NCBI GenBank assembly: GCA_026874595.1
Contig: CM049306.1
Location: 43,090,019 to 43,154,018, forward strand
Direction: 5' to 3'
DNA length: 64,000 nucleotides
DNA from: Sipunculus nudus
Taxonomy: Eukaryota; Annelida; Sipuncula; Golfingiida; Sipunculidae
Shown: positions 31,501 through 63,702 of the stretch, one piece after another
Numbering within the stretch: position 1 is the first letter of the stretch
Layout: every line of letters starts with the position of its first letter
Position numbers and translations under genes: made by a program
The notes under the pieces: model-generated
The model's input: the letters and a program-made list of their open reading frames with translations, nothing else
Told to the model about the DNA's origin: nothing
Database searches by the model: none

Positions 31501-34500
31501 CAGTTTAACGAACGGACAAACAGCTAGACGGACGGATGGACAGCCGACGGACAAAGGACCAAGACGATGACTTATAGTCAGCTGAGCTAAAAAACAACTT
31601 TGGCTGGCCCATTAAAGTACATCAATCAAAGAAAACGGATGTGCAACCTGAATGACATTTAGGAGTATTTGTTGGGTGTGTGTATGCATGAAGCAGCCCA
31701 CCCTGAGTGCTATGAGTTCATAGAGTGCTGTGTTGTGTGTATGAACCAGCATACCATGAGTGTTGTGAGTTTGTAGAGTGCTGTGTTGTGTGTATGAACC
31801 AGCTTTCCCTGTGCTGTGAGTTTGTAGAGTGCTGTGTTGTGTGTATGAACCAGTCCACCCTAAGTGCTGTGAGTTCTTAAAGAGCTGTGTTGTGTGTATG
31901 AACCAGCTTACACTGATTGCTGTGAGTTCTTAGAGTGCTGTGTTGTGTGTATGAACCAGCTTACCCTGAGTGCTGTGAGTTCTTAGAGTGCTGTGTTGTG
32001 TGTATGAGCCAGCTTTCCCTGAGTGCTGTGAGTTTGTAGAGTGCTGAGTTGTGTATATGAACCAGCTTACCCTGAGTGCTGTGAGTTTATAGTGTTGTGT
32101 TGTGTGTATGAAGCAGCCCACCCTGAGTGCTTTGAGTTCGTAGAGTGCTGTGTTGTGTATATGAACCAGCTTACCCTAAGTGCTGTGAGTTCATAGAGTG
32201 CTGTGTTGTGTGCGTTGCAGTGTTCTGGTTCATCCAGCTCAGGCATGAAGATCCCACTTCCCTGATACTCTGTGTCAAACATGATGTCACTCTTGGGGTC
32301 AACCTGAGAACACAATTAAAATAAATAAATCCTAAATCCACGGCCTAAAGGTGGCTTTGTTTATTGAACTAGGATGAAGGTATCCATAAATAAGATTAAC
32401 ATGTTATTATTAAGTCTTCTGGTTTTCAGAATATATATTCTAGGATGTAGGAATAATCCATAATTCATAACCTTGTTTTAATAAGAACAAAAGCCTAAGA
32501 TTTTTTAAAGATTTCACCATAAAGCATTTGAGGCTCTTGTTGGATTGGAACCAGGGACCTTTCAGTCCAATGTATTGAACATAAAAGCCCCATCCTACCC
32601 TGTGAGAACACAGTATAACTATCAAGTCATGTTCAGATGAGGGAGTGGATCAACTAAATTTGTAAATTTATCATAATTCTCATATTTAAACTTAAAAACT
32701 TAATAACTCAATTCAAACACCTTATATTCAACATTTAGTTTATTATATATTAATTATCCGGAAAACTCCTTTTTCATGTTTGGATGAACTGTAAGAGGAC
32801 AGCTAAGTTTGAAAGTAAACTTTGCTAAGTTTATACATAAGGTGAGTGGAGGGAATTGGTTGTAAAATCATATTCACTGATGGAAAGACTAAAACGACCA
32901 ATGATCAATTATTAGTTTAATTTATTTTTAGTTTAATTATTAGTTTAATTTATTTTAGTACCATCTATATTACTGTGATATCTGCTGTACAGAATTTACC
33001 TAAATTATTGACCAGGTAAATTCAGTCTAACATTTACAGCACCCTGAAAAGTAAAGGTCGTTGACAGTTATTCAAGTTTTAATGCTGTTTGATGTTTTGT
33101 GATCCATCTTTCTGAAATCTCTGACAGAATAAGAATACTTTATCGGGATAATACGACATCTTTGGAAGTGCATTCATTGTTTGTGGTTGATTATGCAAAA
33201 ACATAATTGATTTAATCAATTATGAAAGAAAACAACCAATCATCAATATAATTGATTAACTGTCATCCCACTAGGTTTCATATGATGCAATTATGCCTTT
33301 TTGAAAATAATATAAATATCATTTTTAAAAGTCAGCCACTAACACATTAAGACATTTCTGTAATCAAGAACATTTGCTTAGCTTATCTGATAAATTATTA
33401 AAATCCATACAATAATAATGAAACCATAAACAATTTTAGAGTAAATACCCCATAAATACACCATAAAGCCTGATTTAATCACACTCATATAAGGTCAAAA
33501 CTTCTGAGAAATGTTGTAAAATTATCACTAATTTAATCCCAACTGTATCAAAACTTAGATGTGCCAATGTTTTTTTTATTATACTCAGTTCCACCAACCT
33601 GTGTACACTTGTTTTCCAGAGATAATATTTTTAAAATGTTATATTTTTTTAAATTTCCTATCAAGCTGCATATGGAAATCAGGAATTTCAAAATTAATCT
33701 TCAGTGTATGTCTTACAACTTTTTTTACTCTTTCAAATGATCTGACAGATCAGATGTGTCCCTGCATGAGTAGCCATCTTTGTATTGGCTGGTCATATTT
33801 TTAGAGTATTTACATGAAACCATCCAATTAGCAGCTGTCAACTGAGTTTTTTTTTTGCATGTGACCAATGACCTTAATCGCCATAAGTGGGTCTGATGTG
33901 TTGTAAAATGTGGACTACTTTTTTATTTATAATATTTGTTTCTTAAATACAGTGTGTAAGGTAAGTGTTTATTTACCTTGTTACAAGGAGTAGATGAAAT
34001 GGACTATAGTCCATCTAACCCTCAATGCAATTTTTACAACAGGTTTTATAGAACTTTCAAATCAGGAATAAACACTGATCAATTGATGTGGCCAATACTA
34101 CATATATTTAACATAAATTAGAATATAAACTGATCTATTACAAGTTAGACTTATTTATCTTATCTGGTAAATGCTTTCACACCAACTTACATGTATAAAA
34201 GATCTGACAGCACCAAGGCAGCCTACAGCTCCCTCTGTTGGCAGACATAAACACAATGTGGCCATCCTCTTCATGAAAGCAAGCAGCCTCTGGTGAGAAA
34301 TCTAGATACAACAGAAAATGATGGTGATAAAGAAATTTACATATTATATATTAAAATCAGTGCTGCCACTCAAGTTTTAATGGAAACAAATATAAATTCT
34401 CATAACAAAAACAGTATAAAATTGTCTGAGAAAAGTATGAAAAAGTAAAATGCTATGCTTAATAGCGCATTTTTTGTATTATTTTACAGCATGTGATAAT

Positions 34501-37500
34501 TCTAATCAAGCTTGGACCCTATGAAAGCATATATATTCCAGTATTCCATATATCTAGTGATTTTGTAAAACACTGGCAATGTCACAGAAAAAAATCATTT
34601 CTTATGAAATTTCACTATTGTGAAATTCTGACAAAGTATTTTTACTAGTCTCAGTTCAGGTAAACAGTCTATAATCACAACCTGAACTTAAGATGATGAT
34701 TTTAGAAAAAAAAGTATCCACTCCTGAAAAAAATTATGAATAAAGTATAAAAGAAGTCATGCCAAAAAAAAATTATGTTTCTTTTGAAAAAAAGTAGAAT
34801 GGCAGCACTGCAAAATTCATTATCTTATCACAATAGCTAGGGTGGTATACCATTTTTTCAGTATAATGATTGACCTAAGAGGTCTCACCTCTCTCTGATA
34901 TTTAAAATCAGTGTGATTATTGAGGGCTCTGACAAGAACCAATACAAAAATTATTTAAATCCTTGTTTTATATATTATAGACTAGAATAGCAAAAACCTT
35001 TATCTTTATATATCATTTTTTCAAGGGATAATAATTATGGCTTTTCTTGTAAAGGTCTCACCTGTCTTTTTCTCCTGTTAATCATCAGGTTGAGACATTC
35101 TAAAGCTATAGGAACATCTGTACTTGACACACCTGTAACATAAAAGTATTTGACATATCTTTATCATACAATGTGAATAATTGAGGCCAGTCAGCCGGTG
35201 GCATCCTGAATATATAATATTTAATCATTAATTAAAACCCTATAGTTTCACCTTTCATCCAATTGTTTTTAGTCATAACTGAATATATTTCTATATCCTT
35301 TGACAAAATGCATGAACAAGAAGATGTTCACCTAATATGGTGTTAAGGAATTCATTATTAATGGATTTCCAAATATGGGGTTTATTCAATTCATTATTCA
35401 GGCGATGGCAAAATATGGCATTTACAAATTCAATATTAAGGAGATGACCAAATAAGGAATTAAGGAATTCATTATTTAGGTGGTGCCCAAATGTGGAATT
35501 AATGAGCTCATTATTAATGTAATGATCAAATATGGCATTAATGAAATCAGCATTAAGGTGGTGACCATACAAGGCCTTAATTATCATTTTTTTTAAAATC
35601 ACAACAAGTCTATATATTACCCTTTTATTGATTTTATACTCTGATCTGACACATCAAATATCTCCTTGCATTGAAAGTTACATTTTCATAAGCTGCTTTT
35701 TCTTGAATTACATTATCAAATATTAAACTTAAGCATTATGGAAGATAGGTGATTTATTCTATATTAATTAGGTTTTTGCCTCATGGCTCTGTTAGTTTTG
35801 TCATGGGCTTAGGTCAGAGAGGCATTCACAAATCAAAATGGTGATCATAACGATGTCATCATATTAACTACATGTAATGGTGTAACAGGTAAGACTTAAG
35901 CATTTTTTTATTGAAATGGAATTTGTGTTGCACTTGCAGCTTACTTTTCTGGTTAATAAAATTCTCAAAAATATATTGAAATGGAACTTATGTTGCACTT
36001 GCAACTTACTTTTCTGGTTTACAAAATTCTCAAAAAAAATACTGAAATGGAACTAATGTTGCACTTGCAACTGACTTCCCCGGTTAGTAAAATTCTTTAA
36101 AAAAAAAAACCCAACAAATGTGAAGCAATTCAGTAATATTAGCTTGCTGTGTATATAATTTCTTCTGATTCTTCAAATAACAACCACATTGCTTTTTGGT
36201 AGAAAATCCATCCTTTATGTATTGTAAAAGAAGCAACGTCATACTACATACCCGAGTGAAGATGAAAGAGATTCTTGTAGAGGTGAGAGTAAAATCTAAG
36301 GGGGTCAATGTTGAGGACTGTTCCCTGTCCGGACAGCAAGGTGAAGACAGTCTGAACACAGTGCAGTGATTCTCTATATGTCAGCTCCTGAAAAAAAATA
36401 TGGCTGAGTTTATCTTCTATCTCTGAATATGCATTATTATGCAAGTTTAAGAACTTACCTCATATATTATTTATTTTTTCTTGCTAGAAAATACATTGAG
36501 AAGAAGAAATGGCAACTGAATGAAATATAACATAAGCGAGCCCCACCTATTTCACTTTTGAATCCCTTTAAGTATACATCTATTGTGAATGTGTTTCTTG
36601 CACAGTGATGTCATAATAAATGATAAAGTATAGTACAAATAAATGTGCATTCCTTACCTTGCTACACATCATTTCCCACTCATATTGATATGACAATAGC
36701 TTGAAAAATTCATGCTATTAACAAATAACTCTAGTGAAAGACACCTCACTTGTATATAATGTTTTCCTTTTTATCCCTGAAACACAACTAAAGACTACTA
36801 CCTCATTGATATATACTTACTGTAGATTCCACTAGTTGGTGCAAAACCAGAAACAAATCATCCAGGAAATCTACACTAATCAGGTGGGCAAACCTGTAAC
36901 GAGATCATACACTGATAAATTCCGAACACTAAAACCTCAAGTTGTTCTAGAACTATGTGGAGAGTCCCAGTTCTTAGCATACAATCTTCTAAAGTCTGAA
37001 TAAAGCTCCATTATAAGTTAGGATTTTGACCAAAATCTGCATTTATTTTATTTAATTTATTTTAAAATCTGAAAACATCATGTTTTTTTTAAGTTAATTT
37101 GTTCTCATTTAAGTAAAACAGGAAAACTTTCATGCTATGTTTTAATTATCCTATTTATAGGTCATACATCACAAGTGGAGTAAGTACCGGAGCATTACTC
37201 TCAGTGGAATGTCAAAACATGGTACACAAATATACAAATAAATCCCATTTCTGTGTTTAGATATTTATTTGATCACAGTTCTTCTGTAACTCTGTAACTA
37301 TCATTATTCCTATTACTGTAGATCCGCGTTTTGCCGCCGCACGTCGTCTAATGGCTGCACCCCATGTTCGTAAAATACCTGGAAGGCTCCTTCACTTGAG
37401 TAAAAAATTCCCAAAAACCTTACTTAATGGCCGCACCACATTCTCACCACATTCCAATGCAGGGTGGTGTATAGGAACACAACGAAAAAAGGTTGTTTCC

Positions 37501-40500
37501 TCAAACGCTATAGGCTGCAGGTAGGAACGCTGCGGTATGCTGCTGTATGCTAATATGCGGTCAGGCATAACAGTTTTGGGAAACAGTTGCAACTGTGTAT
37601 GTTGCTTGGCTTTGCTAATTAATTAATTCAATTAATTAGTTAAACAGCCTGATCTACCCAATTAGATTAGATTCAGTTTATGATGACTCATCAAAGAAGA
37701 ATCCTAGTAGGGTTCGAAATTTACGAAATTAATTTGACTCATTACTGAATGCCGGAGAATCTTGCCCCTTTAACAATTTAACTTCAGTGGGACGACGGTA
37801 CTTTCATTTAGACTTTATACATTGTCGGTCATTTTACTACAAAACAATTAAATAAACCAAAACCGCATCGGTGTTCATATAACCAGAACACCTTGTGTGG
37901 TGCTGATCATAATATATGCAAAAGAGTGTCCGAACCGTCAACCGTCAAACATGCAACATAAAATGATTAAGGAACTAGCGGGCCTTGGAGTACCTTGCAC
38001 CTTTACCCTAGCTAAATAAACTTCAATGTAATATCAAAGCCAACGGTACTCTTTGTGAAGACTTTTATTTACTTTCTATACAACGTCAGTCAATTAACAT
38101 CCATGACAAAACCTTTGAATAAACGAATCCCGTGTCAATGTTCACACTGCCTGTACGCGTACTCCCAGGGTCCTGCAGATCATAATATATGCACACTGGT
38201 GCCTGAACCGTTTACTAGCAAAACGTGCCATATTAAAAATACTGAACAAGCTGGTGAGGTTATGACCTTTGAAAGCCATCTATTGACAATGTGATGAACG
38301 AACATCTGAACGTAAACGCTGGTTTATATTGCCGAAGAACATATGGTCTTTGGTTATCTTTTGCTTTACAGTTTATTTTAAAAGAAATTATGTGTTCCAT
38401 AAATATCTTAAAATAATGTTTTACCAGTAGTGCAGCCATACTCAAATATAGGTACAACCGTTAGTCTGGTTAGAGTGCAAATTTGGCGAGTGAATATTGA
38501 TCTTCTAATCAATCATTGCGCGGAAAGTGTTGTGGTTTATAACTGACTCTGAACAGTTTGTTAATACATATAAGCCTTTTAAAATATTAATTTTACATTT
38601 TATATAATTAACAATGAATAAAAATAATATACAAATATGCGTTATCATATTTTGAATTTATGTTCTCAGTATTCACTTCCTCCTTCCTCTGCCTATTATT
38701 GCCCATTGCGCCTTGGCAGGCCGTTGAGTCTCTTGTATATGTTTGAATTTAGCCTAATGTGCGTTTTATAGCCACATTCCTTGTTGAGAAATATTAGTCA
38801 AGATTTTCAGCTGTAAGTCTTATTTTATGGCCGCGGTGGCAAAACGCAGATCTAGGGTACCAAAAGTTCAATTACTGAATCAATATCACCTGATGTAGAA
38901 TTTTTCCCATTAATAAAGAATTATAAGCAAACTTATCTTACTTTGCCAGTCCCTCTAAGACAGCAGACAAGAGAACAGAATCCTGAGCAGTCTTCAGGAT
39001 TCTGAAGTAGGTCAGGAACACAGACTCAATTATCTGAGTATTCTGTAATCAGTAAAAAAATATATATATAGAATGATGGACCTAAATATGCAAAGAATGA
39101 ATATATTTATAATGAATTATAATAAATTATTATAATATTATGCAAATTCATTTTTTTATTTTTTTCATAAAATAATCCTTTACATAAATATCACAGTCAA
39201 CAGCAAATCAAGATGCTTTATACCACTTGCCTGTCCTTTATATTCCTGTTAGCACAGGTAAATCATTTAAACTGCAATTTATACAAAATTTAAAGTCTTG
39301 CATGAAGTGTGAAAATCACTAGTGGAAAAGGGATGTGTTCAAAATTACTCTGATGTTGGACAGGAGTCAACAGAAGAACCTCTTTTCCTGCACACTATAC
39401 CAGCTAGAGGCCCATGGGTCATGATGCTCAGCTGAATATCACCAGGCTATAAAGGCTACAGCACATAAATATAGGTAACCATGACTAAATTCATGGGTCT
39501 AAAGTGAATTTCCATGTAAATGTTAAACTTTCCATGTAGTTCGAGTTTATGCCCTGTTAGTGTAAAGGGTTGGACTTTCCAAGCGTCTGAGGTACTTAAA
39601 CATGAGTTATTTGCCCTGTACCTCAGAAAATTTTGCTCACATAGAGCTACAGGTCTCTTGAGATATCTCATTATGCCCTGACTTTAATTGAATAATTAAA
39701 TTTTAACAACTATAATTTAAGCTCTGTTAAAGGATAAGACAACTGTTTCTAAAAAAAATGCAAGTAACAATGTGTAAATATTAAGAGTACAAATGGTGCA
39801 ATCATATATAGCAGTTACAGTTGTTCATGATATGTAAGTATTAAAAGTTTCTTTACAATGTAATCAGAACTCTCTGAAAGATATGTTCTTTTGTAAGAAT
39901 TTTATATATTTGTCCCATAACTGTAAAAATATACGTCATAGCAACTTCACTTCAGGTAACCTATGAGGCCCTACCAGTACGTAAAGTTTAAACTTCCTTT
40001 AAAATATAGATCTGAGCTATTCCCTGCTGAACTTTGGAACCCTGGCTGTAATCTGTAATCTTAATCAATTAAATAAAAAATGCCTAAAAATAGAAAATTT
40101 ACATGTGGCCCGACCAGTCTTCTGCAGTAAATAATTTTTCCTTATAAACAATCAGCATACCAACATTCATGACAATCCATCCAGCTGCTCCTGAGAAATC
40201 TGACCTTTTGTATGATTTGTTCCTGACACGAGTCTTAGCTCCTGAGGTGTCCAAACATGTGATTATGCTGTGAGGATGAAGTGGGAAAGTATGGGTTACA
40301 GAGACAAATTTTAGATTTCCACACAGCATTTGTCAGCAACTGGCTTTAACTTTATGATTTGTGCCTTATTAATGGACAGACAGATGGCCAAAAGACTGGA
40401 TAACCAGATGACCAGCCACACTGATTACATGGAAAGGGCAATCCCTAAAGTTCAGATGACTTAGTCAGCAGAGATGATAACATGTTAGAGTCATATGATA

Positions 40501-43500
40501 CAAAAATATGCAGTGAAACAACTCACAGTTCTCAGCTTCCTTTGCTTGTTGTCAAGGGCAGCTGCATCCTCTAGTTCTTTCTTCAAGTGACTCATCTGCT
40601 TGTTTCTCTACAGAGAGGAATAATGCTAGTAAATACAGTGATACCTCAAAATCACGACCACCATAAAGTGGGACCTCGATAAAGTAGTAACATTTACAAG
40701 GTGGATGTCTAAGCGAGGTCTGATATAAAAAGACTAAAAAAGAACTGGGACCCTAAAATTTTGGGGTGGTCATTAATCACGTTGTCATTAGGCAAGGTTT
40801 TAGTTAGTTTAGAACAGAGGTATACATCAATATTATAATGTCATAATAATTTAACTATCTGGTCATATATCAGGTAGAGACATATAATGCTTATATTTTT
40901 CTGGCCTTTTTGACAACATTTTAATATGCTACAAAAGGCAGCTTTTTGGATATTGTCCATAGACAGTCACAATATAACACTTCTATAGCATTTTTGTAAT
41001 TTTTTTTAACTTAAATTCCATACCCCATACACCTATATGCAACTTTTTATGAAAAGAATAGGCCCAAGAATGGCCACTGTTACCCTCTCATGAAGAAGGA
41101 CAAAGGTAAGCATACAGTGATCACAAGTGCACTACAAAAGTGCATAATACATCTGTTGTGTATCTGGTGACCTCTGACTTCATTAAATATGCATGAATTT
41201 TGATGATAATGTAATTCAGGTGAGAAACTCTATTGGTAAATATGCATAATGAGTTTCATGAAAATCCATAGGATTTTTAATAAGTCACCAAGGTGCCTGT
41301 AAAGTGTCGTGACCTCTGGCTTCATTCAATATGCAAGGACTTTGCTGGAAATCAAACTTATGCGAGATATTTTATTGATTAACTTTTTTGAAGAGTTTTA
41401 TCAAAATCCTTCATATTCTTCACAAGTTATTGTGGCGACACCACAAAGTAGCCTAGTGACCCATGACCTTATTAAATATGCATGGATGTTGCCTATAATA
41501 AAACTCAGGTGAGATAATCTGTTGGTAAGTAGTTTCGTGAAAATCCATCAAAGCCCAGATAAGTTATCACGGCGACACTAAAAGTTAAAGGACAGACAGC
41601 TAGACAGACAGACGGTGGATAAACCATAATACTCCTGTCATATGACGGGCGTATAAAAAAGATATGACAGTTTAACTGCCTCTGCATCTCAGATTTTATA
41701 GGCAAAAAGATAAGAATAATCCAGATGCAGAAAACTGTTCTATAGGCATCACAGATTTATCAAGATTTCACCTTTTTGCCTTAGAAATTCTGGCAGGGTT
41801 CAGAGTCATTGTGTTATATAATCAAACCCCTTTTAAAACTACCAGGCAGCATCCTAACCCCAATTCTGGATACCTTACAAGCAGCATCACATCCTGTACA
41901 ACCTACCTTTTTTTCTCTCTTTGACAACTTTTTCATCTCCCTCTTCTTCTTGATGCTCTCTGCATCTTCTCTCTCCACCTCTTTTATTTTTAAGGACAGG
42001 AACGTATTCAGGACCTAAAAAAATTAAAATAATCAATCTGAGTTTACCCGTACCAGGATAAACTAGATTACAAAAGCTATCATATATTATGTGGCTCCTT
42101 ATTGTTTTTTATTACATAATAGATGAGAGATACTGATATTTGTACTTTTTATTTTTTTCAATGTTTTTATTTACCATAAAAACTTGTGTATAAACCTCAC
42201 CTATATAGTACCTGTGTATAAACCAGCTTTAAGGGTACTATAATTAATTTTTTGTCCATGAAGTTTGTTATCCATGCCTGTTGCATCAAAATTGAATTGG
42301 AAGATATTTATGTTATATTTAATAACAGATCTTTTACAGTAAAAATAATATTTTAGGCTGCCTGAAAGACTGATGATAAATAACACTTTATATTATCCAC
42401 CAAAATTAACAAAAATTGGATGTTTCCTTGGCCCTTCAGCAAATCTAATTTTTTTCATGCTGATATATTTAATTATTCATATAATAATGGATTAACTCTG
42501 TGCAGGGGACACTATAAATAGGGAACACTAATGAACGACTGAAAAAAAGAAAAATCATGAAAATTAAACCTGCAAAAATATGGAGGCAATTATAGTATAT
42601 AAAGGCAATTTTTTTTTCTATTATTCAAGGTTGCTGATGAGGGTTGCATGATCTGGAACTAAAAAATAACAGGTGACCTGTCTGACCAATTACTAGTTTA
42701 GAGAGAGTGAGGTAAAAAATAAGTGACCCATGGCCATGATGCTCAGTTGAATAGTTAGGCTTAGAGGCTCGGGAGTTATTTAGAAACCAAAGTAGCACTT
42801 TGTTGTTAGATAGTTGGCTGTTTAGATAACTAACTGGCCAAATAAAAACTTTAAACGTTTATTACATTTACGTCTCATTGCTCTTGTATAAGATCAAATC
42901 ATTCTGTATGAATGAAACTACAGCAGCAACCTAAACACGTTTTTTGCTCCATTACCTTTGGTTGTAGGTCATATTTCAAATTCTTGGTCATCTTTGCTAT
43001 CAGTCGCACAATCTGAAAACAAACACAATACTACATTTAATGTCTAAATATATTTTACCAAATACAAAACTTTAGTAGGTGGTGTAAAATTATTAAAAAT
43101 CTTAAGACAATTATCTGTGCTTTGAGCTATCCATTTAGTTATGATGATCTTATCAAATTAAGTGATGTGCTTTTTTCATTATCAAATGCTTGTTACAGAT
43201 AAGTAAATTCCAAGCAGAATTGCTGATGCCAGAATGTACACGTATGCAGGACCTCCCTTTATATCTTTGCTGGATAAGGTTAAAATGTAATCTGGTCAAG
43301 AACTTGATTTCTTATATAACAGGAGCCCATTTGAAGAGAACTACCAAACCATGAAATCATGAATTATACTGTTCAAGTTATTACTATGGAAATGAGGCAA
43401 AACCAAGCCAGATATATGTTTTTTTTTGTGGTTTATATCAAAATATTTGGCAGGTGGACTTCAATATTGCCTTGTGCCTATCCCTTTGGGTGCAAGAGAT

Positions 43501-46500
43501 CCCCCAATTCCCTCCCTGTGAATGGTGGTTTTGTTAGTAAACTGTTGTGAGCTTTTCTGTATTAATGAGAATTTTCTCTGTTAAAGTTTATACGCCAGAA
43601 TAAGCCAACCGAAAATTTTCCCTTATTGGGCCTATTATCGCCCATCCCGCCTCGTTCCCGTGTATCTAGGTCACACTATCGTTACCCATAATCACATTTT
43701 CGAAGGCGTAAGGAAGAGGACTGGGAGGGAGCGATGTTTGTAATACAGAAAAGCTCACAACAGTTTACTAACAAAACCACCATTCACAGGGAGGGAATGG
43801 GGGGGTTTTATTACGTAAACATAATTGTGAGCTGTTTCTGTATTAATGAGAAAAGAACAGACATGCCTTGGGGAGGGAGAACCTACCTGTAACGCTGGAA
43901 CGAGGAGAATCTCAGTGCTGGGATGAACAGCAGACGGCTTCGGCGGTGGAACAGACGGAGAGGAAGAATATGGCCGCGAAAATTGCAGGACCTCACCCGA
44001 CGCGATCACAGGGCCCAGGGAGTAGAGGCCCGAAGCCTGGAGCTGAACATCCTTTAGATAGAAGCGTGTGAATGTAGATGGGGATTTCCAGTATCCCTTC
44101 TTGACCAATTGATTAGGTGAGATCCCGGAGAAATGGGGCAAGGAAGTCGAAAGAGCTCGAATGTCATGAGCCTTGATGTGAAGTTGGTCTAAGGTGGATT
44201 GAGACGCTGATTCATATGCGGATACATTAGTAGCTTTGAGCCACGCACTAATAGTGATAGGGCTAATCTCCTTATTGGAAGATGTGACTTTTGTAGAAAT
44301 AAACAACTTCTTGCGCCCCCCCCCCCCCCCCCCGTAAAGAATGAGTAGCTTTAAGATAATAACTGACACACAAACCGGGCAATTTGTAGCCCCATAACGG
44401 TACTGACGTTAGGGAGAGCCGGAACGTGCCAAGCAGACGGAGGGTCATCGAAATTTTGGTTCTTTCGATAAAAATCCGGAGGAAAATGTAGGGTGGCTGA
44501 CGGTTCAATTTGCGTGAATTTCGAATCAGCCACGAGGGCATGAAGCTCAGAACGGCGACCTGCCGAGGCAAGAGCGAGAAGGAAAACCGTTTTCCCAGAT
44601 AAATGTAGAAGATGGGCCGAACGCAACGGCTCATAAGGGGGTTTCCGGAGGTGACGTAAGACGACGTCCAGGCGCCAGGAGGACGAGACGCACAGGCATG
44701 AACCCCCTTGAGAAAGTCCGACACCAGCGGGTGATGAAGGACACGATCGTGACCCAGCGGACGTAGCACCGACAGCAGGGCGGCACGATAGCCACGCAGA
44801 GAGGTATAGGATAAATGTTTATCCTGCAGTAAGAACCCAAAAAAAATCCAAAACAGCCGCAAGCGATGGATCTAAAGGGGAGATTCCCCGGGAAGACGCC
44901 CACTCAGTGAAGAGACGCCACCGGGAGTCATAGATGCGGTCCGAAGAACGGCGACGGGGAGCTGAGGCAAGGAGAGCAGCCGGACTTGAAATGCCCTGAT
45001 CCTTGAGGTGTCCGATGAGAGCACGCATGCCCATAGAGGGCACGACCGAAATGGGCGACGCGCTCGAGGGAACGACGAGAGCGATGCGGAGCGGTAGTAG
45101 AAGCGGGGGGCGAGAGAGAAGCGAGGGCCACAGAGGAAACCAGGGAGCCGCAGGTTGAAACGGGAGGAAGAGAAGAAGGGTTGTCTGGTCCGCGCGGGAC
45201 AAGCGGAGAAGGACACGGCGATGAGATGAGGCGCTGGAAACGCAAAGAGAAACCGGTGGGACCACCCGGATAGCGGCGTGTCGGGGAGACGGTCGCGAGG
45301 GTGACGTAGACGCGTCTCGGAAGGCACAAGAACGGGGGGGGGGGACGGAAAATCTAACAGATCGAAATCCGGCCGCCCCAGGCAAGCGAAAACACTCCGA
45401 ATAACCGGGAGCGGAAGGAGCGGCAGGGACTGAGGAGACCCCGGATGGCGGGAAAGGGCCTCCGCGAGGATGTTCAACACGCCCGGAAGATGGGATGCAC
45501 GAACCGGTGCCCGGAGAGAGATGCATGGATCGAACAAAAGGTAAGTCTCCTGCATGAGCGAGGGAGACCGAGTACCGCCCTGCCTGTTGATATATGCCAC
45601 CACCGTGGTATTGTCGGTCCGGACGAGAATGTGACGTCCGATCAAGTGGGGAGACCAGTGGGAGATCGCGCGGCGGACGGCACGCAGTTCAAGGAGATTG
45701 ATATGGAGCAGACGTTCCGACAGGGACCATATCCCCGAAGCGCGAAGATCGGCAAGATGGGCCCCCCAACCGAGGAGAGACGCATCGGTATATAGGGTGC
45801 ACTCGACATCCCTGGAAAAAGGAACGCCGCGCAGGAGAAATGAAAGGTCCATCCAGGGACGAAGGGACCGCCATGTGAGGCGAAACGGGAGGATCCTAGG
45901 ACAAACCGAGGTGAAACGGAGAAGGCCGTGACCGCGCAAGATAGACTGAAGCGGACGTAGGTACAGTCGGCCAGACGGGATAAAGGACGCGGCCCAGTTG
46001 ACAGCACCGTGGAGAGAAGCCGCTGTGCGCGAGTCTACACGGCGCCGCGTGAGAAAGGAACGAATGAGTCGGCGGAGCTTGAGAGCAAAATCTCGCAGGA
46101 GCGACGCCATGCTGGACGCAAAATCGAGCGTGACACCCAGAAATTGGAGAGACTGGGTGGGAGTGAGAAGAGATTTCTCCGCATTGACCAGGAAGCCAAG
46201 GTTCCGAAGAAAGGTGAGAACTCGGGAGCGATGCGACAGTAAGAGGGAGCGATCGGCCGCATGGACCGGACAATCGTCCAGATAAGGGAGCAGAGAAATG
46301 CCCTGTGAACGGAGATAACTCGTGACCGTGTGAACCAGCATTGTAAAAATCCAGGGGGCCACGTTGATCCTGAACGGAAGGGCCCGGAATTGAAAAACGC
46401 TGTTCTGATACGCGAAGCGAAGAAACGGTTGAGACGAGGGATGGATTGGAACGTGAAAATAGGCATCCGTAAGGTCAATCTTGAACGCCCAATCCATCCG

Positions 46501-49500
46501 CCGAACAATGCGGAGCACAGCATGGATATTGAACATCCGAAACGGGGCGGACGGATGAACGAATTGAGGCGCTTCAGGTCTATGAGCGGGCGCCAATGGC
46601 CGTGCGGTTGGGGAACAAGAAAAAGGCGAGAGTAAAACCCCAAGGTGGATGGGGAAACCTCGAAAATTGCCCTTTTGTCTAACATCGATTGAATGGCCTC
46701 CTCCAAAGCGAGGCGTTTTGCCGGATCGGACTGAGGCGGAGTGAAGAACGGGTGCATGGTGACTGGAGGTGCGTGCAAAAACGTAAGACGGAACCCGAAC
46801 TTTACGGTGCTGAGAATGAAACGCTGTGAGGTGAAACCCGCCCACGCGGGAAAATGAGCTGAGACGAGCGCCAACCAGAGCGATAGAGTCATTTCTTGGT
46901 CGAACCTCGTTTGGAGGATTGACCACGAAAAGGCTGAGAACGGCTGGAAAGTCCGGAAGGACGTGAAGACGTAGCAGATGCGCGACGCGGCTGAGCAGAA
47001 GCCGCAACCGGAGGCCGAGGGCGAGGAACGCGGAAGGATGGCCGAGGCGCAAGAGAGGTCGAGCGGAGGCGGGCCTGACGATCCGAGCGCTCCAAGGCGC
47101 GGTCAAAGAGAGGCCGTAATTGGCCGCCAAACAGCAGGGAACCGGTAAAAGGCTGAGAATAAAGCTCGGTTAACTCAGCCTGAGAAGCTCCGGCTGTAAG
47201 TGCGTTAATGACTGAATGCAAGCCGTGCGACGTAACAAGATGCAATTTTCAACCAGGCGCCAAACGACCTGATTTAACTCAGCGCAAGTATGGGCAGAAG
47301 CCTGCCACATGTCGTTGAGAGTGAGCGTGTCCAGAGAAACGGCAAGCAAGCTAGTGACAGCCTTCAAGTCGTTAACCATACCAGCCAATCGGAAAACTGG
47401 ACAGAGGACGGAAATACTTACCGTCCGCAAACGGCAGTTCCAGGCCGGACTCAAGTCGCATCGGAGCAGACGGAATATCAGGGGATCAGGAAAAGGGAGC
47501 AAGCGATCGAAACAGGAAGCCAGGTACCCACGTGAATTCCAGAGGGTACCGGGGGACCAAGGTTTCTCTGAACCCGGCGGAAGCGGGGCCCCAGTAGTAG
47601 TGGAGCGAGACCCCGAGACCACCGCGTGGTGCTCACGTAAGATATCCCCCGTGTGGTCGGTAAATTCCATACACACGGCGGGCGCGGCCGAGGGTGATTG
47701 AAGGGCGGCAGGATTCAAATTAGAACTGGCCGCCGACGCCGAGGAAGTCTGAGGTTGTAACCGACGGAACTTCGGACCACAAGGGTTAGCCTCCTGTGTG
47801 GAGGTAGCCACTAGGTCCAGAAGCGCAGATTTGCGCGTACGCCAAGCCTGGCGTTGCAGCGCGATCTCTGACCACTGGTCTGGTGCCAGGGCGGGATCGG
47901 CTGACTGAGAAGTCGGGGACCCTGGAGAACCCCGGGTAGGGGGGAGCCAGAGAGACCCGCTGAGCCGGAACTACCGGAGGCTGGAAACAGGAAGCTGGGG
48001 AACGAGCAGCAGCAGGAACCATCCTGGAAGGCACAGGAACCGGAGCCGCAGGCCGCACAGCAGACGGTATCTGAAATAAAGAGCCGGCCGGCCGGGTAGT
48101 AACGGCGGTGGACGGAGGAACCGATGGCGAGGCCGGCTGCCCAGAAACGGAGGCAGGAGGGATCGACACACTTACCTGCTCCCCAGGAAGGGCCGGGCGA
48201 TCTAGCGGGACGGCTCCAGCCGGCCCCGGTGATAATGATGGAATCCGGCGAGGAGCCGGGGCGACGAGAACGGCCGGGGAGAAAGTACCGGGGGCGCCGG
48301 CGAGGGCGCCGGGCGGACTGATTCGGGTCTAGACGAATCGTCGAGATCCGACATAAGTGATGAACAAACCGGGACAATTTATGTAATATGGAATAGGCAG
48401 ATGTTCTGTCAGACTGGGAGGCTGTGGGAACGGGGGAAGATTTCCGTTTCCCTGTATGAGAAAGCAACGATTTAACTGTCAAAACCACTGGAGAGGTGAC
48501 AGGACCGGCGGGAACGGATGGTGAACGCAGCACGGCGGTGGTGCGGTCAACCAGGGTAGGCTCCCCCCCCTCCCCCCCGGAGACAACCACGGGGCCAGAC
48601 AAGGGAAGATTGGAGGGGGAACTCGCAATAACCGGGGAATGAACCCAATCCTGGAACAAGGCCCACTTGTCAGTGGACCACGTCTGGCAATGGAAACAAG
48701 GATCAGCCGGACCACGGCAGGAGTCATTGTTGGTGCGGCAACAAAAACAAGTGGGGTGGGAGTCCCATACCGGGATTATAGTGCCACAAGAGACACAATA
48801 AGTGGGGTTCTCCATGGCGGGCAAGGGAAAATAAGAATAACTTACAATCAGTTGGCAAACTCAAAACGACAAACCCAACAGTGGACGAATCTCGCAGCGC
48901 GGGATCATACGTCCATCATGGCGTACGCCAGAAGAAAATGTGATTATGGGTAACGGAAGTGTGACCTAGATACACGGGAACGAGGCGGGATGGGCGATAA
49001 TAGGCCCAATAAGGGAAAATTTTCGGTTGGCTTACTCTGGCGTATAAACTTTAACAGAGAAAATTCTCATTAATACAGAAACAGCTCACAATTATGTTTA
49101 CGTAATAAAACCAGCTCATTATGAAAAAGTTGTTCAAAGAATTAACTTTGCAAGGATATATAATCAGTGTATAATTTACCTGAAGAGAAACATCACCGGA
49201 TCGATCTTCCTTGAAGACTCGCTTCATGTAATTACAAACCATATCTGATATCTATAAGATAAAAAGAAATCATTTGTCATAATTTTATATCTTAAAGTTT
49301 TCTGCATTCTTTGTGCTGATGGCAAAAGTAATTATTCCATGAGACAATGCTTGATCATAGGATATTAGAGAACACAACTCTACATTAACTGGTTTGATCA
49401 TGTGGTTACAGAAATAAACATGGCATTAATTATGGCCATAGATCATAACTTATCATCTTGCAGTTTATGTACTCACTATTCACCTGGGCACTCTTACCAT

Positions 49501-52500
49501 TCATGAACTCAGCAACCCACCTCTGCACTCTTATTACTCATGTACTGAGCTACTCACTTGGCACTCTTACTGTTCACATAATAAGCTACTCACTTGGCAC
49601 TCTTACTGTTCATGTACTTAGCTGCTAACCTTGGCACCTTACTGTTCATGTAGTCACCTACTCATCTGGGCACTCTTACTGTTCATGTACTGAGCTGCTC
49701 ACCTGGGTACTCTTACTGTTCATACTCTGCAGATACTCACCTCAAGCATTATAGCTCTTTGTGTACTTAGCTAATCACCTGTGATTCTTACTATTCCGAT
49801 ACTGTGCTTATCACTTGGGCACTCCTACTGTTACTGTACTGAGCTACACACCTTTGCACTCTTACTGTTAATGTTCTGAGATACTCACCTTGGCACTCTT
49901 ACTGTTCATGTACTGAACTAGGACACTGATAATATTATTCCTGTAGTTGAAGTTAGGATGAGCCACCAATAGCTCTCCGAGACACCTCAAGCCTAGTTCC
50001 CTCAGCACCTACAAAACAGTATGCTTTAGTCTACTGTGACAACCATCACAATATATAAGGGCTGCTTCTAGCTAAAGTCGGGGTAGACCCCTGACTACCT
50101 ACCCCCCTTGATCCACCCCTGGCATATCTTGGTTACCACTCTTAATGCTATGTGCAGAACAGGCATAACAACATACCAAACAACAACAAAAACAACCAAA
50201 AAACTAGGACCTGGTTGTAAAATCCTGTCACAAATGGTGACTGAAGTTATATAGCAAGTTTTAATTGATTACTCAAGGAATTACTTTTTTTCAAAATTTG
50301 ATTTACCTGATAATAGTGTGACAACTGAGATACATTGTTACATTATTTAATTCTAGAGGCCACACACATTGCAAATGACAGACAGCATGTTTTGATAAAC
50401 CACACTGTTTTTATTTCAAAATTTGATGGACCTGACCGTGTTACAACAGAGATCCATGGTTACCTTTTGTAATTCCAGAGGCCATACATAATGCAAAACA
50501 GAGAGCTTGTCTTGATAAACCACACCATTTTTTTCAAAATTTCATGGACCTGACAATGGTGTGTCAACAGAGATTCATTATTACATTTTGTATTCCAGAG
50601 GCCATACAGATTTTGAAAGACAGAGAGCATGTCTTGATAAACCACACTATTAAAGTATCATGTGCAGTAATTTATGTAATTTTTCTTATTTGAATGCTAC
50701 TCTATGTTATCTTATGTTTCTGACCAAACTAAAACATTTCTCCAAGTTTACATGCCTTCTTTAAAGGTGCATACTTGATCATTTGTTTCAAAAGATGTGA
50801 CTAATAAAAACAAGACATTTTTTGGCACCGCAGGTGCCATATTATTCCCAGATATTTAATCCCCCCTTCTGGAAAAGGCCCCTATCTTCAGAAGCATATA
50901 CTGACAATTAGCAAGCCACCATGGTTTCTTCCATCTATCAACATGAGAAAGATTTTTTTCACAAAATATGGGAAAATTCAAGGTCAAAACCACTCTCACA
51001 GGAGAGATGATGATCCCAATTTAAATATACCTCATCCCATAACCAATATCTATACATATGCATAATATGAAAGAAATCTGTCTATTAGTTTTTGACTTAT
51101 TATGCTCACAGTACTTTCAAGTAGCAATGATTGGGGTTTTAAAAGGCTCAAAAAGCTTGAATAGGACAAAAGGTGGTGCCACCTGTCTTCTGCAGAAGAC
51201 AAAGCTATCCAAGATCTTCTGTCAATTTTTATTTTTGGATCAATCCATGCATCCCTTATTGAGACATTTAAGATTTTGTGTGATTTTCACCAAAAATGGA
51301 AATTTTCAAGGTCAAGGCCCCTTTCATGGGAAAGGTCCTGACCCTAATTTAAATATATGTCATCCCATAACCCATATTTCTGTATATGCATAATACAAAA
51401 GAAATATGTCGATTAGTTTTTGACTTATAATGCTCACAGTACTGTAAAGTAGCAATGATGGGGGTATTAAATGGCATTAAAACAAGAAAAGGATAATAGA
51501 TGGTGCCACCAGTTTCGAGTACATGGCAAGACTATACAAGATCTTCAGTCAACTTGATTTTTGTATCAATTAAAGCACGTTTTCTTGGGATATTTAAAGA
51601 ATTTGTTTGATTTTCCCCTAAAATGGACCTATTCAGGGTCAAGGTCACTCTCCTAATAAAGGTCATGACCCAATTTTAAATAAAAAAAAGTCCTCTCACC
51701 AATATCTATGGACATATCAAGTTTGATAAAAATCCGTGAAATATTTTTTTAGTTATCGTGCAAACAAATTATATCTGAGGAGGGGGCAGGGGGACCAACA
51801 TAAAACCAAAGTATCCCCCAACTTTGTCTGGGAAACACTGATTATGAAGAAATAAAGACCAGTCATTGATAAAATCAGTCAAAAGACAAAACACTCAACT
51901 TACAGTGGTGGCCTCTTGTGGCAAATGGGTACCATTCACCCTCTTTTTCTTCTTTTTACTTGAAGTCTTAGCTGGCTTTCCTTCAATATATACAACGAAA
52001 TATGACAATTCTGTGTAAGAATCTCACAGGTTAAATACAGTAAATGCTTGAATACGATAACTGAACAGATTGGTGGGAGCAACAGACGGTGTTCAAATTA
52101 TTGAAAGTAAAAATCTCAGTGATATCAGGAAGCTTTGCACATTGTATAAACAATATGTGTTTTATCTTACAGATGTGGCAAAAATAATTAGTTAATTTAT
52201 TTGAGTAATTTTCAGATCACCTTTGACAGCTGCTTCCAGGAACTCCAAGTAATGTCTGTAGTGTTTCAGCAAACTTTCTTCAAAAGCCCTCATCACTTTA
52301 GTCTCTTTCTTCATCTGAATAACAAAATACAGGAATAAAAACGTAAAAAATTCTTTAAATATAATGTGTTTGGGTTTATATTCTTGAGTTGGATATTTCT
52401 AAGATAAAAGATAATTCATTAGAATTATTTTTCAAGGCCTTCCAGTGACCAATACTATGAGTAACAGATTTTGTGATTTTTTTGTCATAAACGTTATTAT

Positions 52501-55500
52501 CTGATGCTTGTCTTCATTTACTAATGAATATTTGGATAGTAATTAACTAGTGCTTTCCAAATTCCTCTCCAAATTCCAAGCACAGAATAAGTTTCTGATG
52601 AGCAAATAATGTTTTAGGAACACTTTCCTGCCAAGATAGATGAGATGAATTTAGCAGTCATTGTATACATGAATGCTCAGCTGTGCTACAGATTGCCTTA
52701 TTTATCGAGGCTTCTTTTGAGTGATTTTAACCCTTTTGTGAACACCAAAAATTTAAAACCCTGGAAAATATGAAGCAATCACCAGAAAACTGTTAATTAT
52801 TGAGGGTTTTCAATACCAGAATCATGATTGCATATTTAAAAGAAAATATGCTAATACAAAAACTCTGCTGGTCTTTGTCATTTTGTCTGTGGAATATACA
52901 TCTTGTAACATTTAGTGTTTCAACATTATATAGTTTGGCATTTGACAAAATGACCATTGTGTCCTTTTGAACTAAGCTTCGGATATCATGAACTATCCAT
53001 TTTGTCTGTTTACAGTAAAACTTGTGACATTTTGTCTGTGGATATTATATCCAGTGCTATTTTTCTGTGGACATCAGGTCCTAATGAATTTTTTCTGTGG
53101 CACTGTGGTATTACATCCTGTGGATATAACATCTAACAGTAGTTTGTGTCTGGACATTATATCTTTCTGAATTGAAATGTGGACGTGTTGTTGACATTCA
53201 TCTGTGAAAAATATATACTGAACATTTTTTCTGTGGACATAATGTACTGTTGATGGACAATATGAAATATTTTGTCAGAACCAATATATGATTTGCATTT
53301 GGATAAAATGAAAATCCCATCAGTTCACCATGGCATGTTTTCAAAAGAGATGGTAAAAGGAGTAAATTATTGGGAAGATACATATGGCAAAGCCCTGATG
53401 AAAAAAACGCTGACATCATTATATGTTCTGGGAGAGCTGACTTTGATTAGATAAGTATGTATAACAAGTTGTAGCCCAACTTTTCCAGATTCTGGTTTTT
53501 AGAATTTGTTTTCCAATTACAAGGTGCGACTTCTGTTAGGGATTTTACAGTACATTTATTCAGTAATACTCAAGTGTTGAATTTTTACTTACAGACTGCT
53601 GCTTTTCCTTGTCTGTGTACACCCTTATGTGGTACTCTGGGATGATGTCCTTGAAAACCTCCAATAGTGAAACTGCAGCCAGCTTCCGAACCGTTATGAA
53701 GATATCTGGGTCATCTACATCTAGGAAACTTCTCAGTTCTTTCAGTTTAGACATCTACAGCAAAACATGCAGAAACAAATTCAGTTATGTCGCAAAGAAT
53801 GCCAGTACTGTTAATAAATATTTAATAATATTGAATCATCTGATGAACAGCGACATCAAAATTCTGTGTAATGCACTTCTGTAACAAGCAAATTTGTGGA
53901 ATTTATGTCCCTCGCTTCTTCTTCTTCTTGTCCCCCTTTTGCCATCTCATAATATTAGTTTTTATTTTGCCCTGAAAATGTCTCCACATGTCATAGTGCC
54001 CCTGTTTTAGTTTTTATTGTCCCCTGAAGATGTCTCCACATATCATAACTTGTTTTAAACTGAGAACAAAAAGGAAATTTTTGTTTTGTTTTGGAGCTGG
54101 TGATAATAATTTTTCAGACAGACACTCCAAAACCAATCCCAACCAAGGTATGCATGAGAGCAATCACTGACCAAATTTGAAAGAAATCGGATAATATTTA
54201 GGAAAGTTATGGCATGGAAACATAAACCTGAAGAACAGACAGATGGACTGACAGACAAACCTAAAACAATTATCATATACTAGTTTAATACACTGTCTGA
54301 TAAATAACTCTTTATAAGTTCTATTAGGAGCTTCCACAAAGGCTTATTTTTAGGTTTTATTCAAAGGGGGCCCTGAAATGTTTATTGAACATCTAAGATC
54401 TCTTTCTGATTCTTTTCAACCTTCATTCTTCACATAAAATATACCTCCTGACTTCTATTTCTCAACTCCCTGCATCTCCTGCATACTCTCTCCCTCACCC
54501 CTTGTGACCTGGACACTCTCCTGGGGTTTCTATAATTCCTGTGGGCAGTGCAGCTATATTCCATTTGGTTTCCTCAAGCTTCATATTAACCCACTCCTTA
54601 CCATTCTCTCTCTCACTATCAATACCACACCTTCCTCTACCCCTTATGACTTACCCGCTTCATCTGGTTTTCAATAATTCCTGTGGCCAGCCTGAGTTCA
54701 ACTATCTTCTGTTTGGTTATCTCAAGCTTCTTATAAACCCGTCCAAACCAATCCCCCCCAACCCCCCTTCTCTATGCCATTTGTAACTTACCCCCTCCTC
54801 TGGGTTTTCTTTGATGCCTGTGACCAGTATAGCTATCCTCTGTTTGGTTTCCTCTAGCTTCTCATAAGTTCCCTCTCATTCATTCTCTCTCTCCCTCTGC
54901 CAGCATCCCCACCCCCCAACCACTCTCTGTCCCTTTTAACTTACCCCCTCCTCTGGGTTTTTTCTTTGATGCCTGTGACCAGTATAGCTATCCTCTGTTT
55001 GGTTTCCTCCAGCTTCTCATAAGTTCCCTCTCAATCATTCTCTCTCTCCCTCTGCCAGCCTCCCCACCCCCCAACCACTCTCTGCCACTTTTAACTTACC
55101 CCCTCCTCAGGGTTTTCTATGATGCCCGTGGCCAGTACACCTATCTTTTGTTTAATCTCCTCCAGCTTCTGTTGCCTCTGTAGCAGCAGCTGAGCAGTGC
55201 TGAGGGCTGGCAATGGTTCAGGTTCAGCCTTGGTCTCCTCTCCATCCTGTTCTTTTTCTTCTTCTTCTTCAGCTACAAATTAAAATGTATTTGTTATAAA
55301 AAAACACTCTGACAATCATGGAAAAGTTCAGTCATGAAATAATTTCCAAGATCTATTATGTTTGTTAACAATTGTAATAAGTTTAATTTTAAAATAAAAC
55401 TATAATACTGACAGGTCAGAAAGGGTCCCACAAAAGGCCCATAGACTTCCAGTGTGGGCTGAGTGTGCTTTAAAAACTATAATAAAAGACCTGATTACAT

Positions 55501-60185: not shown

Positions 60186-60520
60186 GTGCACACACTGCAA
60201 AAATGATTGTAGGTGGCATCACCAGTCCAAGACGAAGCTATCAGAGATGTATACATATGCCTAATTTTAGGCTGATATACCAAACCCCTCCTGAGAAATA
60301 AGCTGAGACATACACTGCAAAAATTATTGTAGGTGGCGCCACCAGTCTTGTATATGACAAAGCTTTATGATAAGTATAAATATACCAAATTTCCAGTTAA
60401 TATATCATATCCCTCCTGAGAAATAAGCAGGCATATACACCGTTCAAAAGTCATTGTAGGTGAACGAAAAAGCCATCAAAGATGCATAGACAGGTCAAAA
60501 TATCAGGCCAATACATCAAT
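60186..60520. repeat. GGTGGCGCCACC-type tandem repeat, ~120-bp units
   Basis: Three decayed units with CTGCAAAAATnATTGTAGGTG, GGTGGCGCCACCAGTC and CCTCCTGAGAAATAAGC. Related in style to the HINE core and R2 repeats. Confidence 0.65.
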
Positions 60521-60839
60521 CTTCTGTTGAGTCAGGTGCACTAGGCTAACCTGGCTTAGGTGAGAAAGGCAGTTGCCCCGTGTGAACCAAAATGAATTGC
60601 TATCCCAGCCACTGCACTGAGTGAACTCTTGACCTGCATCTGGCTGCACTAAGTGAGCTCTTGACCTGTTGTTACGGGGTGACATAAAAAGCGGACCGAA
60701 CTCTCTCACGGCAATGATCTGACCTTTGTTTATTATGGCCCCGCTTGACAAGCTGTGCCCTATAGTGATCACCTTGTCAGTCTGTCCTTTTGCTCTTCTG
60801 TACTTCCGTCAGTGACACTTTGTTTGGTGCCCAATAACA

Positions 60840-62060
60840 AAATAACAACATACTGCAGCTTTCCCAAATTCACAGGGATGATTGGAACCTATGAGAGCTT
60901 CAGACCTATCAAATTATAGATTTGTCAAAATTCAAATATGGCTACCACAGCCCAATCACTGATTTTCTTCTGGGCGCGATAACTCAACAACAACATACCG
61001 CAGCTTTCCCAAATTCACAGGGATGATTGGTACCTTTGACGGCTCAAGACTTTTTGAATAACACACCTGTCCGGATTCCAATATGGCTGCCAGAGCCCAA
61101 TCGCTGATTTTCTTTCGCATGTGACAACTCAACAGCAACATACTGCAGCTTTCCCAAATTCACAGGGATGATTGGTACCTATAAGGGTCCCATTACTCTA
61201 TAATGGCAGACCTGTTGATTTTCTACGCACCAAAAATATCTCAACAAGAACATGCTTGATCTTTCTTAAATTCACAGGTATCATTGGTGCCTATGAGGGC
61301 TTCTGACCTATCAAATTACATATCTGTCGGAATTTCAATATGGCCACCACAGCCCAATCACTGATTTTTTTATCGCGCAATAACTCAACAACAACATACT
61401 TCAGCTTACCCAAATTCACTGGGATGATTGGTACCTATGAGGATTCTATCCCCATTAAATTACTAGTCTGTCCGAATTCCAATATGGCTGCTGGAGCAAA
61501 ATGGGTGATTTCCTTTTGCACACGATATCTCAACAAGAACATTCTTGATCTTAATCATTTACAAAGATATGATTGGTACCTATAAGGGCTCCAGACCTAT
61601 TGAATTACAGACCTGTCAGAATTCCAATATGGTCACAACAGCTCAATCGCTGATTTTCTTTCGCGTGTGATAACTCAACAACAACATACTTCAGCTTCCC
61701 TGAATTCTTAGGGATGATTGGTGCCTATGCAGACTCTATCCCTATTAAATTACAGGTATTTTGAAATTCCAATATGGCTGCCAGAGCCCAATGGCTGATT
61801 TTCTTTTATGCGCAATATCTCAACATGAACATGCTTGATCTTTCTCATTTACAGAGAGGTGACTGGTACCTATAAGGGTCCCATCTCTATCGAATGGCAG
61901 ACCTCTTGAAATTCCAATATGGCCACCAGAGCAAAATTGTTGATTTTCTTTCGCACCCGATATGTCTCAACAAGAACATGCTTGATCTTTCTCAAATTCA
62001 CAGGAATCTTTGGTGCCTATGAAGGCTTCTGACCTATTTAAATACAGACTTCCTGTTTTT
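60840..62060 (+). repeat. tandem array of ~145-bp units
   Basis: About nine units. Each has CAACAACAACATACTGCAGC, TTTCCCAAATTCACAGGGAT, GATTGGTACCTATGAGGG, GAATTCCAATATGGCTGCC and CAATCGCTGATTTTCTTTCG. Spacing of the GATGATTGG word is about 104-150 bp; one unit is shortened. Two subtypes seem to alternate in part (CAACAACAACATACTTCAGC versus CAACAAGAACATGCTTGATC). The short frames here belong to the repeat. Confidence 0.88.
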
Positions 62061-62521
62061 GTAGGTCATATTTTCCAACTATAATGTAAGTTTTTCACCC
62101 ATATATAAACTAGTCCAACACTACAAGAAATGTGGGGCCCTCTGAGAACCAAAGTCCTGCCACATCTAGGTATGTGTTAAACACCCACTTTGTTTGAAAC
62201 GTGTGTGTTTGTTGTCATAATATCCATTCAAATGGATGACTGTATTATGGATATGTATCATTTTCAATCCAAACTTTTAAATACTTGAAAGCACATGTGG
62301 GTAAACTATATTTTAAATATTATCTTGAAGTTATTACAAAAAGTTTTATCCAATATTCTTTTTTCACATATTACCCTTTATCAAACAAAATATCTTTCTT
62401 CTTGATAACAGTGATAACAGTCTAATGAAGACAACCACTATAACTTTGATCCTGTCACACCTGAAAAACATCCTGACAGCTTATTTGAACATATCCCTTT
62501 TCTCACAAATGAGTCATAATT
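62061..62521. other. intergenic DNA, nothing recognised
   Basis: Contains a word (GTATTATGGATATG) also found at 63847, and otherwise no supported feature. Confidence 0.45.
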
Positions 62522-63702
62522 GTATCCGCCAAAACAGAGTTTTGTGGATACTATGTTTTCAGCCCATCGCCGCCACTGCCGCCGCGTAGGTGTCCGGAGA
62601 ACTCCTCCGTAACCGCTGGGTGGAATTTTACGAAACCCGGGATAATGTTCAGGTCACATGTGAACTGCTGCGCCCCGATTTTTTTTACCTCTGACCTTTC
62701 CTCTGCGCTCTGCGTCCGTTTGTGCGTCTGTTTCCACACATAAACCCACATAACTCGGGAACCATTTGACCGATCAGGAAAATTTTTTTTGCACAAATGT
62801 AGCCCTTGGAGAGCTTTATAACATACACAAAAAATAGTGGCGCCATCTCCAACCATGTTTGCACAGTGTCCATCTGTTTGTCTGCCTTGGGTTAAAATCA
62901 CTCATATCTCTGCAGTGACTTGACTAATTCACCTGAAATTCGGCATGCGTATACATCCTGGATAGCTTTTCTGATTTTATGACAGGTGGCGCCACCTTCA
63001 TTCACGTTTACGCTGCAGACATCCAAGCTCATATCTCGGGAACCGTTTGACCGATCAGGAAAATTTTTTTGCACAAATGTAGCCCTTGGAAAGCTTTATA
63101 ACATACACAAAAAATAGTGGCGCCATCTCCAACCATGTTTGCACAGTGTCCATCTGTTTGTCTGCCTTGGGTTAAAATCACTCATATCTCAGCAGTGGTT
63201 TGACATATCTGGCTAAAATTTTGCAGGTTTATACATCCCCAACAGCTCTCTTGATTTTATGACAGGTGGCACCACCTGCATTCTAGTTTATACAGCAGAC
63301 ATCCAAGCTCATATCTTGGGAACCGTTTGACCAATTGGGCCAAAGTTTTGCAAGTGTATGGTTCTCACATAGCTCTTTATCATACGCAAAACTGGTGGCG
63401 TCAGCTGCAACCATTTTTGCTCAGCGTCCATCTGTTTGTCTGCCACGGGCTAAAATCACTCATATACATGTAGTGGTTTGACTTATCTGCCTTAAATTTT
63501 GCATATGTATACAACTTGGACGGCTTTCTGGATTTTGTGGTAGGGGGGGCAACCTACATACACAATTTGGCTGCAGACATCCATGCTAATATGCAACACT
63601 TCACTCTATTTCCCCATGCCACTCAATCCATGCCTCACTTCACCCGTTCCACTCTGATTTAGGCGGATACACGTAGTCGCTTGTCGACTACCCGTATCCT
63701 AG
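62522..63702 (+). mobile_element. Helentron-like non-autonomous element (HINE), copy C (complete)
   Basis: The best-preserved copy. The 5' end is GTATCCGCCAAAACAGAG. The 3' end has the inverted partner CACTCTGATTTAGGCGGATA C, then a hairpin GTAGTCG/CTTGT/CGACTAC, then CCGTATCCTAG and host T. In between are about three core units of ~290 bp with CATATCTCGGGAACCGTTTG and GACAGGTGGCGCCACC, preceded by a GC-rich block (CATCGCCGCCACTGCCGCCG). The 5' end repeated inverted just before the 3' hairpin, plus a tandem-repeat core, is the HINE/pearl layout. No Rep/helicase gene, so it is non-autonomous. Confidence 0.8.

Follow-up and report, generated by a model that had tools for sequence, protein, structure and literature searches.

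Results

NOC3L and its exon-end arrays

The window analysed in this study is a stretch of 64,000 nucleotides from the 1.43-Gb genome of the sipunculan worm Sipunculus nudus (G000:C1:43090019-43154018), and it carries the gene NOC3L on its minus strand. The joined exon peptides match the human NOC3L chain 8fkv_SU with an E value of 2.9e-106, and 17 exons were traced by eye and by alignment. Three introns of this gene open with tandem arrays in which the first copy is made up of the upstream exon's 3' end and donor, as determined with Tandem Repeats Finder (TRF) and by direct reading. The exons, their arrays and the other minisatellites of the gene are as follows.

32175..32303, minus strand: NOC3L exon VDPKSDIM...TALR, aligned to human NOC3L, start placed by eye; its last 38 bp form the first copy of array a
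31676..32212, minus strand: array a, 53 bp x 10.2 copies; the unit comprises the exon end, the donor GTAAGC and 15 intronic bp; exon share 38/53 (TRF and reading)
49889..50008, minus strand: NOC3L exon VLRELGLR...SAK; its last 32 bp form the first copy of array b
49456..49914, minus strand: array b, 37 bp x 12.5 copies, with the donor GTGAGT in the unit; exon share 32/37 (TRF and reading)
55100..55272, minus strand: NOC3L exon AEEEEEKE...NPEEG; its last 71 bp form the first copy of array c
54770..55170, minus strand: array c, 155 bp x 2.6 copies, with the donor GTAAGT in the unit; exon share 71/155 (TRF and reading)
35330..35567, no strand assigned: NOC3L intron minisatellite, 39-bp unit, without exon sequence (TRF)
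35909..36106, no strand assigned: NOC3L intron minisatellite, 65-bp unit, without exon sequence (TRF)
50285..50651, no strand assigned: NOC3L intron minisatellite, 122-bp unit, without exon sequence (TRF)

The last exon bases before arrays a, b and c are 32175, 49889 and 55100, and the arrays reach 38, 32 and 71 bp into the respective exons. Array c can be followed by eye through decayed further copies to about 54500, with GGTAAGT recurring in steps of about 155 bp. A first-pass annotation of this DNA had described the three introns as beginning with arrays seeded by the exon 3' end and donor, and had set them apart from the other minisatellites of the gene, which lack exon sequence; both descriptions hold. 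Its periods of 53 and 155 bp were recovered, but the third, given as 42 bp, is 37 bp by TRF.

When the exons are joined at the donors closest to them, human NOC3L aligns gap-free across all three junctions (PEEG/MSKLK, SAK/ISDM and ALR/RHYHP), and a frame continued through these donors runs into a stop 35, 6 and 2 residues further on. The conserved NOC3L protein therefore fits the use of the exon-proximal donors. A genome search with array a returned a single match, itself, and no copy of any of the three arrays was found elsewhere in the window, with b and c compared with the window only; a dispersed repeat was accordingly dropped as an account of the arrays.

One NOC3L intron also houses a retroelement, recognized from an open frame of 752 amino acids (44872-47130) that is hit by RVT_1 (E 1.1e-17) and by RNase H models, and long open frames extend on the minus strand across 43755-48824. 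Outside the traced NOC3L exons, TRF reports tandem arrays of long period (85-400 bp) at 8545-11578 and 60192-63592 of the window, several of which have a GGTGGCGCCACC-like word in the unit.

Arrays built on a donor word

The genome was searched for three AGGTAAGT words following one another at intervals of 25-55 bp, which gave 460+724 matches, and likewise for the reversed word, which gave 340+262. These are not counts of arrays, as a single large array yields dozens of matches. Among the matches listed, which come from C1 and the first 33.4 Mb of C2, there are 11 AGGTAAGT arrays, and reading of the 5' flanks places the beginning of eight of them at an apparent exon 3' end (loci L002, L004, L005, L007, L008, L009, L010 and L011). 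The exon contributes 21-55 bp to the unit in seven of the eight and just 3 bp in L002. Five of the eight exon peptides match Pfam at E values of 0.016 or less (TPR_12, PI3_PI4_kinase, PH, ABC_membrane and cNMP_binding), two of them above the curated cut-off; those of L005, L008 and L010 have no Pfam match, and there the exon call is an open frame ending at the donor. No such exon was seen in the flanks read at L001, L003 and L006, the L006 array running on in the 3' direction past the fetched stretch, and none was recognizable by eye at three reversed-word arrays, to which the Pfam scan was not applied. Because AGGTAAGT is itself a donor word, the test is biased to donors by design; it demonstrates a wide occurrence of such arrays and says nothing of a preference for donors. 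At L002 (G000:C1:2461200-2462700) a single TPR-coding exon has a different array at each side, one of 40 bp x 17.3 copies at the acceptor (28 bp of exon) and one of 62 bp x 9.6 copies at the donor.

Arrays at donors and acceptors of sampled exons

A sample of exons chosen with repeats ignored was assembled from three Pfam families, using 99 of 138 listed places for kinase, 120 of 126 for kinesin and 69 of 89 for SNF2. The remaining places were removed by hand without one fixed rule, and were mostly near-whole single-frame domains, small contigs and stop-rich frames. From 219 merged regions, 180 were picked by bases per exon, a choice that favours closely spaced exons; 160 of these were read and, with six regions fetched earlier, gave 166 loci with 232,759 bases and 223 hits. 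In these loci 410 splice sites were assigned by script, 195 of them donors and 215 acceptors. Arrays were TRF rows with a score of at least 80 and a period of at least 15, and a strict count by hand reading required at least 7 bp matching exon sequence.

By the script, array edges fall within the exon at 5 of the 195 donors and 9 of the 215 acceptors (Fisher p 0.42). In the strict count 12 of the 410 splice sites (2.9%; 95% interval 1.7-5.1%) have arrays: four donors (L020, L093, L118 and L177) and eight acceptors (L035, L063, L082, L088, L090, L095, L153 and L166). Left out were L021, where the array ends at the acceptor itself, L149, which is weak (71% match), and L150, where the array starts at the donor with 9 exon bases, 67% of which match the copies. 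L088 was added, the script having put the edge 8 bp into the intron, whereas the reading frame puts the exon start earlier and so places 32 exon bases in the array. Two loci illustrate the two arrangements: at L166 the start of a kinesin exon is repeated in about seven units ahead of its acceptor, and at L177 the final 70 bp of a kinase exon reappear downstream of its donor. The arrays of NOC3L stand at donors only, whereas those of the sampled genome stand at donors and acceptors. The first-pass annotation had held that enrichment at donors over 3' splice sites would support a specific process, and the sample of 410 sites shows no such enrichment. A process confined to donors was dropped once the acceptor arrays appeared.

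Within the introns, the script placed 2 edges on the donor side and 10 on the acceptor side at 1-100 bp from the exon, and 7 on each side at 101-300 bp. Arrays that are wholly intronic are concentrated, that is, in the 100 bp before acceptors (10 edges for 215 acceptors) as compared with the first 100 bp after donors (2 edges for 195 donors). Minisatellites make up 5.7% of the non-exon sequence of the sample.

Anatomy of the arrays

Breakpoints were analysed in 24 arrays, 16 at donors and 8 at acceptors. In all 24 the exon contributes less than one unit. Its share of the unit ranges from 0.05 to 0.92 and is indistinguishable from a uniform distribution (Kolmogorov-Smirnov p 0.52, n=24), so the ends of the duplications do not favour the splice site. 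Copies within an array are non-identical, with TRF matches of 72-97%. In the intronic copies, exon-derived columns differ by 7.2% and intron-derived columns by 6.2% (21 arrays with both, p 0.23), and this equal divergence gives no sign of coding constraint on the copies. Unit length is divisible by three in 9 of the 24 arrays, showing no frame preference; a coding use of the units was rejected on these two results. The guanine-cytosine (GC) content of arrays is 0.371 as compared with 0.341 in their own introns (22 loci without an edge array, p 0.054), and base composition may be a factor.

Discussion

The arrays described here are mirage-like, of a known kind, and frequent in this genome. The first-pass annotation knew of no named class for such a pattern, but one exists in the "mirages" of amphioxus, reported for Adh3 and the globins BflGb6 and BflGb9 (PMC3087553) and for troponin C and PGBD5 (PMC3902484). 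Amphioxus mirages are minisatellite-like tandem copies of the exon-intron boundary, occur at both 5' and 3' boundaries, and often keep their internal splice signals. Correspondingly, the unit spans the exon-intron boundary in the three NOC3L arrays and at further loci of Sipunculus nudus, and both boundaries are affected (4/195 donors and 8/215 acceptors, and both on one exon at L002). Unit lengths are similar as well, at 10-72 and 150-160 bp in amphioxus and 30-155 bp here. Amphioxus mirages are known from single genes, whereas the present count (12 of 410 splice sites) covers sampled genes of one genome. Undisturbed regular splicing and instability of length, between haplotypes or somatic, are also counted among the marks of amphioxus mirages; here, the gap-free alignment of the NOC3L protein over the junctions is what bears on splicing, and the arrays are seen in one assembly.

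We consider it likely, with a probability of about 0.75, that the arrays are of the mirage type in origin as well as in form, that is, tandem duplications across a splice site that are tolerated since the exon-proximal site stays in use. A short tandem duplication would happen to span a splice site. The copy adjoining the exon would retain a working site and presumably remain the one that is spliced, while the remaining copies would fall within the intron and evolve free of coding constraint. The array could then grow or shrink as any minisatellite, its expansion probably proceeding via slippage or unequal exchange. On sequence grounds, splicing probably takes place at the exon-proximal site. 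In a genome rich in minisatellites, about 3% of the sampled splice sites would be affected in this way, donors and acceptors alike, and NOC3L drew three. With approximately 36 splice sites in the gene, 1.05-1.23 arrays are expected and the probability of three or more is 0.09-0.13; three arrays are therefore unremarkable for a gene chosen by eye. Exon-end arrays are special neither to NOC3L nor to donors.

Two observations weigh against the duplication account. All three NOC3L arrays are at donors, for which the probability of at least three is 0.006 at the strict sample rate of 4/195, taking 18 donors, and comparison with the 5/195 donors of the script gives a Fisher p of 0.022; both values are post hoc, for a gene chosen for that very feature. 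The second observation is that array edges on the exon side exceed the number expected from even births, in which the exon side would hold one target length at the density seen 101-300 bp into the intron. For a target of 55 bp the excess is 3.6-fold by the script (p 0.0008) and 3.1-fold in the strict count (p 0.0045), and something beyond even births may thus act. Exon edges might be mutational hot spots for tandem duplication, acceptors more so than donors, by way of chromatin, a step in GC content or transcription-linked breakage, an explanation to which we give somewhat less than an even chance. The signal is carried by acceptors, which alone give ratios of 4.2-4.7 (p 0.0026-0.0069) for the 55-bp target, and it is before acceptors that the neighbouring 100 bp of intron are enriched in edges relative to 101-300 bp (p 0.027), although there is no significant excess overall (p 0.12). 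Donors alone, however, are not significantly above background at that target (ratio 2.1-2.6, p 0.10-0.20). A target of 80 bp lowers the ratio to 2.1-2.5 (p 0.013-0.043), the full range across targets and counts being 2.1-4.4 (p 0.0001-0.043), and the background comprises 14 edges, all 101-300 bp into introns and none from deep intron. The same picture would result if arrays persisted longer at exon edges. In its broadest form, which we hold tentatively and at a little under even odds, the proposal is that minisatellites arise preferentially at exon edges throughout the genome of this worm, most of all at acceptors, such that about 3% of splice sites sit amid near-identical decoys from which the spliceosome still picks the exon-adjacent one. 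If true, this would provide a large natural series in which to examine how the exon-proximal splice site is chosen and how intron gain begins.

The other explanations that we weighed against mirage-type duplication are far less probable. The first-pass annotation had suggested a process acting at exon-intron borders, such as R-loop or U1-linked breakage or slippage at GTAAGT-like words. Its placing of the arrays at the exon end and donor is anatomically right, and such arrays occur widely in the genome; the three of three arrays at donors in NOC3L together with the 8 of 11 AGGTAAGT arrays at apparent exon ends would suit a donor-tied process, though the latter were found with a word chosen as a donor. 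Acceptors are affected at least as often as donors, however, and the breakpoints are spread evenly over the unit, which makes a tie to donors very unlikely. That the arrays serve splicing or protein variation, through extra sites or a repeated peptide, is also unlikely, if slightly less so: many copies retain GT or AG sites, and minisatellites at the exon-intron boundaries of human duplicates alter splicing (PMC2812944), but the exon-derived parts of the copies are kept no better than the intron-derived parts, unit lengths ignore the reading frame, and read-through in NOC3L meets stops. The arrays could, alternatively, mark new introns gained by tandem duplication, a known route (PMC4974935) that was proposed for mirages by the amphioxus authors themselves (PMC3087553). 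Yet in each of the three NOC3L introns the donor end resembles the acceptor end no better than shuffled sequences do (scores of 14, 16 and 16, under 95% shuffle levels of 18, 20 and 18), and intron gain by this route, which would leave ends that match each other, was rejected for these introns and is highly improbable for the arrays as a whole. An assembly artefact, for which no evidence was found, can be given hardly any credence, since the copies differ from one another, the units derive from the exon beside them, a genome search located array a nowhere else, and the NOC3L arrays have no copy elsewhere in the window.

Several other systems in the literature share part of this anatomy. Young human gene duplicates carry internal tandem repeats or minisatellites that span exon-intron boundaries (PMC2812944), as do the arrays of Sipunculus nudus, but the human repeats vary between recent paralogues and alter gene structure, whereas here the exon ends seem unchanged. 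Intron gain by tandem duplication, reviewed with the example of a potato RNA-dependent RNA polymerase (PMC4974935), likewise involves a duplication that carries splice signals; here, in contrast, the copying concerns a single edge of an intron already present, and the ends of the three NOC3L introns mismatch each other. Minisatellites within introns that do not include the exon-intron boundary are also on record (PMC4039745, PMC12783039). In the literature found, boundary-spanning minisatellites have so far been described in a few amphioxus genes and among young human duplicates, and no genome-wide count in a comparable animal was noticed in the literature searched, which leaves most subscription papers outside its coverage. 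Zhuo in 2007 reportedly wrote of "introns from tandem arrays", and Gao and Lynch in 2009 are said to have surveyed six genomes for duplications within genes and for the creation of introns.

A frequency of about 3% of sampled splice sites implies many loci at which a real site lies beside up to approximately 18 tandem copies of itself. With ordinary RNA data, both the rule by which the exon-proximal site is chosen and the tandem-duplication route to introns become testable.

Bacterial DNA in the assembly

Apart from the arrays, nine near-equal cox1 matches that are free of stops under the bacterial code were found on contigs C60, C61, C62, C66, C72, C74, C75 and C89, the last with two places. 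One of these, at L161 (577 amino acids), is bacterial, with at most 58% identity to GTDB records; DNA of this type perhaps stems from a contaminant or from an undescribed symbiont present as several strains.

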